Program-made: the position numbers and the translations under genes | Assembly (NCBI GenBank): GCA_005503165.1 | Contig: SCNT01000013.1 | Location: 1-64,000 of the forward strand | DNA: 64,000 nt | DNA from: Sphingomonadaceae bacterium 3R27E2-A | GTDB taxonomy: Bacteria > Pseudomonadota > Alphaproteobacteria > Sphingomonadales > Sphingomonadaceae | Reading direction: 5' to 3' | Shown: positions 3,538-6,803 of the stretch, one piece after another | How positions within the stretch are numbered: position 1 is the stretch's first letter | Layout: each line of letters opens with the position of its first letter | Notes under the pieces: model-generated | Seen by the model: the letters and a program-made list of their open reading frames with translations, nothing else | Told to the model about the DNA's origin: nothing | Database searches by the model: none

Positions 3538-4407
3538 TTATTGCGAGCCACGCGGCGAACGGGACAAGATGAGAGCGCGGTCGCGGCCGCCGAGGTCCTG
3601 GCGGCAAGCGACATCGAAACCCGCCGCTTCGGCGAGTTCGCGTACCGAGATATGCTGGCTCGCGCCGATTTCAAGCACCGCGATCCCGCGGGGGGCGAGC
3701 AGGCGCGGCAGGTCCGGGACGATGCGGCGATAGTCGTCGAGGCCGTCGGCGCCCGCGAAAAGCGCCTCGGCCGGCTCATGATCGGCGACGTCGGGCAGCA
3801 GCATTTCGCCGTCGCCGATATAGGGCGGATTGCAGAGGATGAGGTCGAACGGCCCGTCGATGCCCGCGCCCCAGTCGCCCGAGCGGAACTCGGACCGGTC
3901 GGCCATGCCCAATTGCTCGGCATTGTCGCGCGCATAGGCGAGCGCGAAATCCGAAGCATCGACGCCGACCCCCGTCGCCTCGGGAAACTCGCTCAGCACA
4001 GCGAGCAGCAAGGTGCCCGGCCCGGTCCCGAGGTCGAGAACCCGCGAGGGCCAGCCCTCCTCCCGTTCGCGCCGTGCAATATCGAGACACGCTTCCACCA
4101 AGGTCTCGCTATCCGGCCGCGGGATCAGAACCCCCGGCCCCACCTCGATACGGATCGTCCAAAAATCGCGGTAGCCGACGATATAGGCCATCGGGGTATG
4201 TGCCATCCGCGTCGCGACCAGGTTTGCGTAATGATCGGGCACCTCATAGCGCCCCGGATCGAGCAGCAGCGCCTGCCGCTCGACCCCAAGCGCATGCGCC
4301 ATCAGCAATTCGGCATCGAGCCGCGGGGTGTCACTGGTCGCGGACAAGAGGTTGGCCGCGGTGCGCAGCGATTCCGCCACGCCCGCGAAGATCGGCGTGT
4401 CAGTCAC
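3538..4407 (-). CDS. prmC: Release factor glutamine N5-methyltransferase PrmC (HemK)
   Basis: A 289-residue SAM-dependent methyltransferase that methylates the Gln of the GGQ motif of class I release factors. SAM-binding motif I is [16 protein letters not shown] (about 123-138). The substrate-binding NPPY motif is at 193-196, followed by the expected pattern of an alpha-helical N-terminal domain and a Rossmann C-terminal domain. The start overlaps the 3' end of prfA by 8 bases, so the enzyme is translationally coupled to its substrate RF1. The gene order hisS-prfA-prmC-DUF4167 is in one direction. Length is normal for the family. Confidence 0.97.
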
Positions 4408-5467
4408 CCAGCCCCGCCAGCCGCTGCGCCTGGTCCTCGGCGATCAGCGCGTCGATCAACTCGTCCATCGCGCCTTCCAAAATCTCGGGCAGGCGGTGGA
4501 GCGTCAGGTTGATCCGGTGGTCGGTCACGCGTCCCTGCGGGAAATTATAGGTGCGGATGCGTTCGGAGCGGTCGCCCGAGCCGACCATCGACTTGCGCGC
4601 CGACGCCTCGGCGCTGTGGATCTTCTCGCGCTCGAGGTCGTAGAGCCGCGCGCGCAGCACCTGCATCGCCTTGGCGCGGTTCTTGTGCTGGCTGCGCTGG
4701 TCCTGCTGGATCACGACGAGGCCCGTCGGAATATGCGTGATGCGGATCGCCGAGTCGGTCGTGTTGACATGCTGCCCGCCCGCTCCGGACGCGCGATAGA
4801 TGTCGATTTTGAGGTCGCTCTCATTGATCGCGACGTCGACCTCCTCGGCTTCGGGCAGCACCGCGACGGTCGCCGCGCTGGTGTGGATACGCCCGCCGCT
4901 CTCGGTCACCGGCACGCGCTGGACGCGGTGGACGCCGCTCTCGAACTTCAATTTGGCGAAGACGCCCTGCCCCGCGACGCTCGCGACGACTTCCTTGTAA
5001 CCGCCGACCTCGGCCTCGTTCGCCGAGATGATCTCGACCTTCCAGCCCTGCCCGTCGGCGTAGCGGCTGTACATGCGCAATAGGTCGCCCGCGAAGAGCG
5101 CCGCCTCATCGCCGCCGGTCCCGGCGCGGATTTCGAGCATCGCGGCGCGCTCGTCGGCGACGTCCTTGGGCAGCAATTTGACCGCGAGGTCGTGCTCGGC
5201 CGCGGGAAGGGCTTCCTCGACGGCGAGGAGTTCCTCGGCGGCCATCGCCTTCATCTCGGGATCGCCAAGCATCTCATTGAGGGCCACGACCTCGCCGCGC
5301 AGCCGCACCACCTCGGCCGCCGCCTGCGCCACGGGTTCGAGCTCGGCGAACTCCTTCGACGCCGCGACGAAGTCGGCGGGCGCCATGTCCCCCGTCGCCA
5401 TCCGCGCCTGCAAGGCGGCGTGGCGTTCGATGATGGCGTCGATCTGGCGGGCGGAAACGGAGGTCAT
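4400..5467 (-). CDS. prfA: Peptide chain release factor 1 (RF1)
   Basis: A 355-residue class I release factor that reads UAA and UAG stop codons. The catalytic GGQ is at 230-232 within [17 protein letters not shown]. The codon-reading tripeptide region is PVT at 186-188, the RF1-type (RF2 would have SPF). The N-terminal coiled region and C-terminal [20 protein letters not shown] segment are standard. It follows hisS by 16 bases and overlaps prmC by 8, so it is part of a translation operon. Confidence 0.98.
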
Positions 5468-5483
5468 TCGACGATTCGAGTCA

Positions 5484-6803
5484 TCAGGTCAGAGGTCGCA
5501 GAGTAAATTCGCGTGTTTCATTGTCTTCTTGGAGTTCAAACGACGTTGCCAACAACTCGCGCAATCGTTTTCGAACGGGCGGAGCGCCGTCCATCAGGTC
5601 ACGGATACGCACAACAATTGCCCCTGAGGTCAATGTAGACGAGACGGTGAGTGCTCGATGTCCTTGTCCCCGCCGTGCCTTTTCGTACCGTTTCTTGGAG
5701 GATCCCGAGAAGCCCATGTCTGCTCTTATGCCGCCCCTTCTGAGAAAACGGAGGAGCATTTGCGCGGTCGCCAGATCTTCCGGATCGTCGGGGATTAGAA
5801 TGAGTTCAGGGAGATGATCCCAATTTTGGGGCCCCACCAACATCGCCAGCCGCTCGATCCCCGCGGCCCAGCCGACCGCCGGCGTAGACGGCCCGCCCAG
5901 CGCCTCGATCAGCCCGTCGTAGCGCCCGCCGCCGAGCACCGTGCCCTGCGCGCCGAGCCGGTCGGTGACGAATTCGAACGCGGTGTGGCGATAATAGTCG
6001 AGCCCGCGCACCAGCCGCGCGTTGCGCTCCCACGCGACCCCCGCGGCGTCGAGCCCGGCGGTCACGGCGCAGAAGAAGTCCTGCGCCTCGCCGGTAAGGA
6101 ACGCGTCGATATCGGGCGCGCTGTCGGCGATCAGCCGGTCGCGCGGGTCCTTGCTGTCGAGGATGCGCATCGGATTCTTGTCGAGCCGCGCGAGGCTGTC
6201 CTCGCTGAGGTCGCCGCGGTGCGCCTCGAAATGATCGACCAGCGCGGTCCGCCAGGCATCGCGGCTCGCCGCATCGCCCAGCGTGTTGAGCGTCAAGGTC
6301 ACGCCCTCGGCGATCCCCAGTTCCTTGAGCAGCTGGTCGGCGAAGACCAGCAGTTCCGCATCGGCAAGCGGGCTGTCGCTGCCCAGCACTTCGGCGTCGA
6401 GCTGGTGGAACTGGCGATAGCGCCCCTTCTGCGGCCGCTCGTAGCGGAACAAAGGTCCGTGCGTCGCGACCTTCAGCGGCGCGAACTGTTGCCAGCCGTT
6501 GGTGATATAGGCCCGCGCGATGCCCGCGGTGAATTCGGGGCGCAGCGTGATCGATTCGCCGCCGCGGTCGTCGAACGAATACATTTCCTTCGACACGACG
6601 TCGGTGGTTTCGCCGAGCGAGCGCGCGAACACCGCGGTCGGCTCGATCACCGGCACCTCGACGCGCTTGTAGCCATAGAGCCGCCGCACCCGGTCGAAGG
6701 TATCGACGACATGGCTAAAGCGATCGGCGAAATCGCCGAGCATGTCCTGCGTGCCCCGTACCGGCTGCGGCGTCGCGACCTTGGCGGATTTGTCCTTGCT
6801 CAT
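5484..6803 (-). CDS. hisS: Histidyl-tRNA synthetase with compositionally distinct C-terminal domain
   Basis: A 439-residue class II aminoacyl-tRNA synthetase. Class II motif 2 is [20 protein letters not shown], and the histidine loop [17 protein letters not shown] and motif 3 [14 protein letters not shown] are intact. The start at [20 protein letters not shown] matches the usual N-terminus; a longer open frame upstream runs through a repeat element and is rejected. From about residue 329 to the end, base composition falls from roughly 75% GC to about 50-58%. The anticodon-binding domain encoded there ([34 protein letters not shown]) is recognisable but diverged, with the usual G-E-x-E-x-x-G signature replaced by SSTLTSG, plus a polar tail of about 20 residues. 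Confidence 0.95.

Follow-up and report, generated by a model that had tools for sequence, protein, structure and literature searches.

The hisS locus and its compositional step

The window (the whole stretch of DNA analysed here, 64,000 nucleotides long) was placed in Sphingopyxis, and its family taken as the Sphingomonadaceae, from named relatives in sequence comparisons; the Sphingomonadaceae are soil and water bacteria. The window carries on the minus strand a gene for histidyl-tRNA synthetase (HisRS), hisS, which runs in an unbroken frame from an ATG at 6803 to a stop codon at 5484-5486. The features of the locus are as follows.

5484..6803, minus strand: hisS, histidyl-tRNA synthetase, 439 aa (TIGR00442, 415 bits; one genome-wide match above the cut-off)
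5838..6803, minus strand: conserved catalytic core, ending with the GIERLAML codons (93.8% median identity in 75 Sphingopyxis; edge from identity changepoints)
5838..5861, minus strand: GIERLAML codons, 5' limit of the exchanged tract (in all 22 qualifying pairs identity breaks between -3 and +9 nt relative to where they end)
5487..5837, minus strand: exchangeable low-GC C-terminal (anticodon-binding) domain, 117 aa, type T11 (type clustering; predicted fold)
5487..5540, minus strand: C-terminal extension of about 18 residues, an additional beta-hairpin in the model (from its secondary structure, and from profile matches elsewhere)
4400..5467, minus strand: prfA, flanking the exchange on its 3' side (16 bp past the hisS stop; next gene downstream in 74 of 74 Sphingopyxis)

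An earlier note on this DNA, made from the sequence alone, had claimed an abrupt drop in GC within hisS at the anticodon-binding domain, inside one uninterrupted frame, and both parts of the claim were borne out. The GC content of positions 5484-5819 was 0.545, compared to 0.674 for the whole window. Only 0.05% of all 336-bp intervals were as low, and these formed one single stretch (5426-5840), the lowest in GC for its length in the window. The likelihood changepoint within hisS fell at 5828, near codon 325, with GC of 0.540 versus 0.688 on its two sides; the log-likelihood gain was 11.9, compared to 8.8 for the highest among 300 permutations. The GIERLAML codons end 10 bases away, at 5838. 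GC3, which the note had proposed to compute along hisS, dropped from 0.89 (core) to 0.53 (C-terminal domain).

The catalytic domain had been described as normal, and it is: the protein, with a class II core, scored 415 bits compared to the TIGR00442 cut-off of 286.75, and the whole genome had a single HisRS above that cut-off. The C-terminal domain had been said to match the usual HisRS only loosely, with a missing G-E-type segment and a polar tail. This description proved accurate as well: no match to HGTP_anticodon (PF03129) was found in the window protein or in its C-terminal part at E values up to 1, and the hydrophobic-G-[acidic]-x-E segment was absent by eye.

An assembly artefact was considered and ruled out. 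Low-GC domains were also present in single-contig genomes (e.g., G044), and the domain type of the window recurred, with open frames, in three other genomes, two of which are metagenome-assembled (MAGs).

Nature of the C-terminal domain

A profile of type T11 picked up the C-terminal domain of HisRS in other families of the class, with a best E value outside the window of 9e-11. The matches listed were open frames of at least 410 residues, except one of 196 residues (G405), and those checked by eye against hisS positions were within hisS. Among the matches listed, all ended at or before position 101 of the 117 profile positions, save the window's own and one in G447, which reads through a stop codon. 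In a PF03129 scan of five other domains of the family, the canonical domain of L136 matched at 2.8e-16, those of L131 and L172 stayed below the cut-off, and those of L181 and L189 gave no match. An alignment of 41 diverse family domains had one invariant Arg, as well as two Gly and one Ala that were nearly so.

The core of the full-length HisRS model was poorly predicted (mean pLDDT 67.6); therefore, only its C-terminal domain and a separate model of that domain (mean pLDDT 85.7) were used. In a fold search of the PDB with the domain model, 23 of the 24 chains found at E values up to 0.001 were synthetases (HisRS, ThrRS, ProRS, GlyRS and one titled only 'a tRNA synthetase'), with TM-scores of only about 0.5; the one other match, at rank 2, was PelC. 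The same kind of search among viral models returned none at E values up to 0.001. The anticodon-domain fold is thus predicted to be kept. Given the profile homology and the synthetase fold matches, the domain of the window is most likely an anticodon-binding domain that has diverged very far and carries an additional hairpin at its C-terminus.

Diversity of the domain in the genus and the family

We searched 80 Sphingopyxis genomes and read 75 complete hisS genes (74 plus L125, a named copy of G046). No close hisS match was found in G110, G048, G030 and G117, and the gene of G042 was cut by a contig end. The set of 74 was used for GC3, prfA and pair identities, the set of 75 for trees, medians and clusters, and a set of 73 for the boundary. 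For comparison we used 78 rows from other members of the family (at least one genome is present in duplicate, as L166 and L253 with the same domain), 34 loci from the order outside the family, and a class-level set made of the best 30 of 114 class genomes by score, from 30 families.

In the 75 Sphingopyxis the median identity was 93.8% for the core and 35.2% for the C-terminal domain (5th percentile 17.0%). In the class-level set the respective medians were 62.9% and 41.6%. Therefore, the C-terminal domain is less identical within one genus than it is across the best-scoring 30 class members. Clustering at 40% identity divided the Sphingopyxis domains into 20 clusters and left the cores in one; the 153 family rows gave 39 domain clusters. 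These counts are independent of the resolution that we chose for the graph clustering into domain types T1-T33. Clusters T1, T2, T3, T6, T9 and T11 spanned genera, which may reflect either transfer or old shared polymorphism. Besides the window, T11 was carried by Sphingopyxis G039, the Sphingobium MAG L153 and the Sphingomonadaceae MAG L189; G039 was the only other Sphingopyxis that clearly matched the domain of the window. Equally varied domains were observed in Sphingobium, Sphingomonas and their relatives.

The loose hydrophobic-G-[acidic]-x-E pattern was present in 30/30 class-level and 34/34 order-level HisRS, compared to 3/75 in Sphingopyxis and 24/78 in the other members of the family. 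A domain GC3 more than 0.15 under the core GC3 was found in 30/74 Sphingopyxis and 29/64 other named family members, and in none of the 30 class-level and 34 order-level loci. The class genomes past the best 30 were covered by profile match alone, which extended to position 396 or further (of 406) in 106 of the 109 genomes above the cut-off; G000, G128 (same family) and G193 fell short. The best reading of these data is a recombining polymorphism in an essential synthetase that, within what was read, is confined to the family of the window. Part of the diversity may be vertical, since 47-49 of the 75 Sphingopyxis domains cohere at 40-50% identity and many have matched GC.

One hisS locus, L145 (RPSH01000001.1), is titled Bacillus sp. 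2B10. Its hisS core is 81% identical to that of the window, so the label is probably wrong.

Exchange of the domain between genomes

Across 2775 pairs of Sphingopyxis, core identity and C-domain identity had a Spearman correlation of -0.03. Among 817 pairs with cores at least 95% identical, 405 had C-domains below 35%, which ruled out a one-off import into the genome of the window. We observed near species with core DNA 94-98% identical and domains only 26-28% alike in residues, as well as other pairs with domain DNA 97-99% identical on cores of about 90% identity. For example, G043 and G108 had a DNA identity of 95.7% upstream of the gene, 97.9% in the core and 41.5% in the domain; 4.3% of their core fourfold sites differed, and the domain residues were 26% identical. 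In G040 and G114 core DNA was 94.0% and C-domain residues were 28% identical. Conversely, G108 and G109 had a DNA identity of 47.5% upstream, 89.5% in the core, 99.3% in the domain and 99.7% in the following 300 bp.

The case of G108 could be followed along the sequence. At informative sites G108 was like G043 over most of the core and most of prfA. Within prfA its sites were like G109 until about nt 273, and mixed from nt 213, placing the 3' crossover at about nt 195-286. The 5' crossover was past core nt 924; besides a short G109-like stretch at 831-870, a few isolated sites resembled G109. Since it is like G043 on both sides of the domain, G108 is the recipient of a G109-like domain.

Synonymous distances gave the same picture. 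For G011/G057 the dS was 0.471 in the core and 0.039 in the domain, and for G108/G109 it was 0.385 and 0, respectively. In two other pairs the domain dS exceeded the core dS (1.58 vs 0.34 for G004/G056 and 1.64 vs 0.53 for G029/G100, values above 1 being rough). Domain values far below or far above those of the core are what separate histories of the two parts would produce.

The genome of the window fits into this pattern. G031, one of its closest relatives by core, had 92.1% identity in core DNA and 32.5% in the domain, and its closest domain relative, L189, comes from outside Sphingopyxis (domain 41%, core 81%). The earlier note had suggested that the anticodon-binding domain was replaced by recombination (or evolved separately), and replacement is supported by the discordant identities of cores and domains and by the tracts between the hisS core and prfA. 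The contrary outcome that the note had named, close relatives sharing the window's domain vertically with agreeing trees, was absent: the trees disagree, and most relatives are without the window's domain. Nor is this one event in one genome. There are many divergent yet homologous versions of the domain, recombination replaces the short tract from the hisS core to prfA, and exchange of many domain types is recurrent in Sphingopyxis, with recent transfers within the genus.

Separate trees of the core and of the C-terminal domain, also proposed in the note, did disagree: in the 75 Sphingopyxis, 31 of 36 well-supported domain splits contradicted well-supported core splits. In the 28 genomes used for controls, conflicting splits numbered 12 of 14 between the two parts of HisRS, 3 of 7 between those of ThrRS, and 7 of 10 between the HisRS core and ThrRS. 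Since control genes conflict too, tree conflict was not used as proof.

Identities and GC3 set HisRS apart from other synthetases of the same genus. In the 28 genomes the catalytic part and the C-domain of ThrRS had median identities of 87.5% and 88.7%, with a mean GC3 step of 0.010, i.e., none. For HisRS in the same genomes these values were 94.1%, 34.2% and -0.127. The anticodon domain of ProRS had a median identity of 90.0% (25 genomes), likewise with no fall in GC3. In lineages of other families with canonical domains, the core and domain medians were 80.7% and 55.6% in genus g5 (8 genomes) and 84.5% and 65.0% in g17 (6 genomes). Thus, the anticodon domain is faster than the core in canonical lineages too, yet far less so.

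Boundaries, flanks and possible carriers

The 5' boundary was constant: in each of the 22 qualifying pairs, the identity changepoint lay between -3 and +9 nt from where the GIERLAML codons end. These pairs, with core DNA at least 91% and domain below 36% identical, were drawn from 2628 and are not independent of each other (26 genomes). A constant edge is what one would expect of a mobile element that integrates at the GIERLAML site of hisS with its own 3' end, the replaced domain staying after the element is lost. We consider this very unlikely. The gene prfA directly followed hisS in 74/74 Sphingopyxis and in 63/64 other family loci, the last one being cut by a contig end 84 bp after hisS. 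No displaced remnant of a domain was found in the hisS-prfA intergenic regions, where the best blastx match covered 30 residues on the opposite strand at an E value of 9e-4. The 3' crossover of G108 fell within prfA. With synonymous differences of 0.243, the last 18 codons of the core were inside the range of the remaining core (0.162-0.393), so the DNA at the edge shows no unusual conservation.

The searches for carriers gave a similar answer. Neither plasmids nor phages contained the window's domain in tblastn searches, and plasmids did not contain the VEDD-type domain of L181. A scan of viral contigs with two domain alignments, one of the window's type and one of a VEDD-type set, returned nothing, and the window's domain by itself, when run against genome contigs, gave no confirmed relative. 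There was no second close hisS in the 80 Sphingopyxis genomes. A silent cassette was likewise absent from the window's own genome, where a profile of the 41 diverse domains matched hisS alone and the next match had an E value of 0.58.

One replicon named plasmid, L439 of Sphingomonas parapaucimobilis (NZ_CP155751.1, 425 kb), carried ppa, an M61 peptidase gene, hisS, prfA and prmC in a neighbourhood like that of the window. It may be a piece of the chromosome or a second chromosome.

The hisS-prfA gap itself was variable. It was longer than 60 bp in 25/74 Sphingopyxis and nearly absent in the rest, and most of the long gaps inspected displayed REP-like palindromes (CGTCATCCCGGACTTGATCCGGG and similar, by eye); this is another sign of turnover there. 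In G108 the gap contained a small GIY-YIG nuclease frame (L064:958-1428; PF01541, E value 1.4e-16) with palindromic repeats alongside, and the same frame was seen by eye in G109, G002 and G107. In G108 this frame seems to have arrived with the G109-like import.

Constraint on the domain

A simpler account would be relaxed constraint. The domain would be nearly dispensable since G-1:C73 of tRNA-His suffices, would drift fast, become AT-rich by mutation bias and be swapped without consequence. Low domain GC3 is in line with this account (at most 0.58 in 13/74 genomes). We estimated dN/dS for 20 pairs with like domains, chosen by us, of which two recent transfers were set aside (dN/dS of 0.61 on a dS of 0.039 in one, undefined in the other). 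In the remaining 18 pairs, several of which had an unreliable dS above 1, dN/dS was 0.04-0.27 in the domain and 0-0.13 in the core. The domain value was higher than the core value in 9 pairs, as relaxed constraint would have it (0.27 vs 0.08 and 0.18 vs 0.02, for example), equal in 3 and lower in 6. Like domains are therefore under purifying selection, in half of the pairs weaker than that on the core. The good confidence of the predicted fold and the invariant or near-invariant Arg, Gly, Gly and Ala of the 41 diverse domains also speak against near dispensability. Finally, drift alone cannot give 26% domain identity beside 97.9% core DNA identity. We judge relaxed constraint to be unlikely.

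tRNA-His

The gene for tRNA-His was located by similarity search in 78 of the 80 Sphingopyxis genomes; it was missing from G048 and G030, both incomplete. The earlier note had suggested comparing the identity elements of this tRNA, and here the domain found no counterpart: the anticodon arm was identical, G-1 was encoded and C73 was present in 78/78 genomes. The domain could otherwise have followed changes in the anticodon arm or in the identity elements, and the 14 sequence variants of tRNA-His in the 78 genomes might appear to favor such coevolution. All of the variants, though, were outside the anticodon arm, and at the level of base sequence the identity elements were constant. Furthermore, a single tRNA-His sequence, shared by 45 genomes, was paired with unlike domains (e.g., in G028, G038, G044, G011/G057, G108 and G024). 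Coevolution with the tRNA sequence is therefore no explanation, and we rate it as the least probable of the alternatives.

The variants fell into two main classes (loci L311-L340 and L341-L388) that co-differed at body positions 26/44, 57 and 60 (standard numbering, our count). Such variation of tRNA-His within one genus seems unusual.

Passages of a review on tRNA identity (PMC9976931) rank G-1 as the major determinant for HisRS and the anticodon as a minor one, list G34, U35 and G36 among the identity elements of bacterial tRNA-His, and describe the role of the anticodon in E. coli as important in vivo. HisRS may thus tolerate change in the domain, since the bacterial enzyme reads mainly G-1:C73 and the anticodon secondarily; this, along with G-1 and C73 in 78/78 genomes, is on the side of relaxed constraint. 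The importance of the anticodon in E. coli speaks against free tolerance. The tRNA sequence gives no reason for the domain to change.

Proposed explanation

We propose that HisRS of the Sphingomonadaceae carries its anticodon-binding domain as an exchangeable allele cassette, with the diversity of the domain kept by balancing selection, probably via an antagonist; as a whole we regard this account as rather probable. The core keeps one history, and the domain is imported from elsewhere. The low GC of many versions would then be a mark of their separate history. Balancing selection, suggested by the pattern among genomes that represent one per species, would keep the versions diverse, and an agent other than the tRNA-His sequence would act on the domain. 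That agent would most likely be a hypothetical antagonist (a phage protein, a delivered toxin or a natural inhibitor) that binds common versions, such that rare ones are favored. We prefer an antagonist because an advantage of rare types easily accounts for the circulation of dozens of divergent domains. A lineage-specific partner, or simple tolerance, is less probable.

In its more specific form the proposal is tentative: the domain could be the contact site of a common putative antagonist, which is escaped by importing a rare domain, leading to a balanced, horizontally shared polymorphism. Another agent to be weighed is a non-translational function of HisRS (a protein partner, autoregulation of mRNA or stress signalling) that differs by lineage in the absence of any antagonist. 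It would agree with a known ligand that is invariant and a domain that is for the most part variable; according to passages of PMC9976931, several yeast synthetases, HisRS included, bind their own mRNA at anticodon-like structures. Sister-like species, however, differ in domain type and distant ones share it, a distribution that fits a rare-type advantage better than adaptation of lineages, and we give such a function little credence.

Aminoacyl-tRNA synthetases are usually taken as slowly evolving and tuned to their own tRNA. Here, one domain of a synthetase varies more within a single genus than across the best-scoring 30 class members, which come from as many families, with the tRNA arm constant. 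The system sets tRNA recognition apart from any other influence on the HisRS domain and gives a direct experimental handle on it. It may also lead to a toxin or natural inhibitor directed at HisRS. If the antagonist reading is true, HisRS would resemble a phage-receptor or antigen locus, only inside the cell.

Comparison with known systems

Our literature search, which covered few subscription papers, found none joining histidyl-tRNA synthetase and Sphingopyxis, nor any joining hisS, Sphingomonas, recombination and tRNA synthetase. In a wider search, nothing of this kind was found in the titles and abstract beginnings of the matches listed.

The canonical HGTP_anticodon domain (PF03129) and the domain of the window are alike in position, predicted fold and remote sequence homology. 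The latter differs in having neither a Pfam match nor the G-[acidic]-x-E segment, in its low GC, in its extra C-terminal hairpin and in not being inherited together with the core.

Among transfers of synthetases, Ardell and Andersson (2006) reportedly described the lateral transfer of an alphaproteobacterial HisRS, as a whole synthetase, with changed rules for tRNA-His. As in that case, HisRS sequence moves between lineages; unlike there, it is the C-terminal domain alone that does so, and the identity bases of the tRNA stay the same. Essential genes are also known to have mosaic alleles when selected from outside; in mosaic penA of Neisseria, for example, short recombination tracts replace part of an essential gene, as they do here. 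The segment replaced in hisS is far more divergent than in penA, and the selecting agent here is hypothetical.

Outside pressure on hisS has one precedent among the matches listed in our search: in Pelobacter carbinolicus a CRISPR spacer against hisS was linked to the loss of histidine-rich genes (PMC2923632). That spacer acts on the DNA or RNA of hisS and, as described there, involves no exchange of a protein domain, unlike the case considered here.

The nearest known concept, going by the passages of Zheng, Roberts and Kasif (2004; PMC387263) on the subject, is that of segmentally variable genes, among which aminoacyl-tRNA synthetases are named. Like the HisRS described here, the product of such a gene is conserved apart from a variable segment, 70 residues or longer, that is taken as a binding surface; the C-domain of Sphingopyxis has 90-136 aa and a median identity of 35.2%, compared to 93.8% for the core. 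In those passages the variability of synthetases is ascribed to tRNA recognition across organisms, whereas in hisS it arises within a genus, by exchange, beside an invariant tRNA arm.
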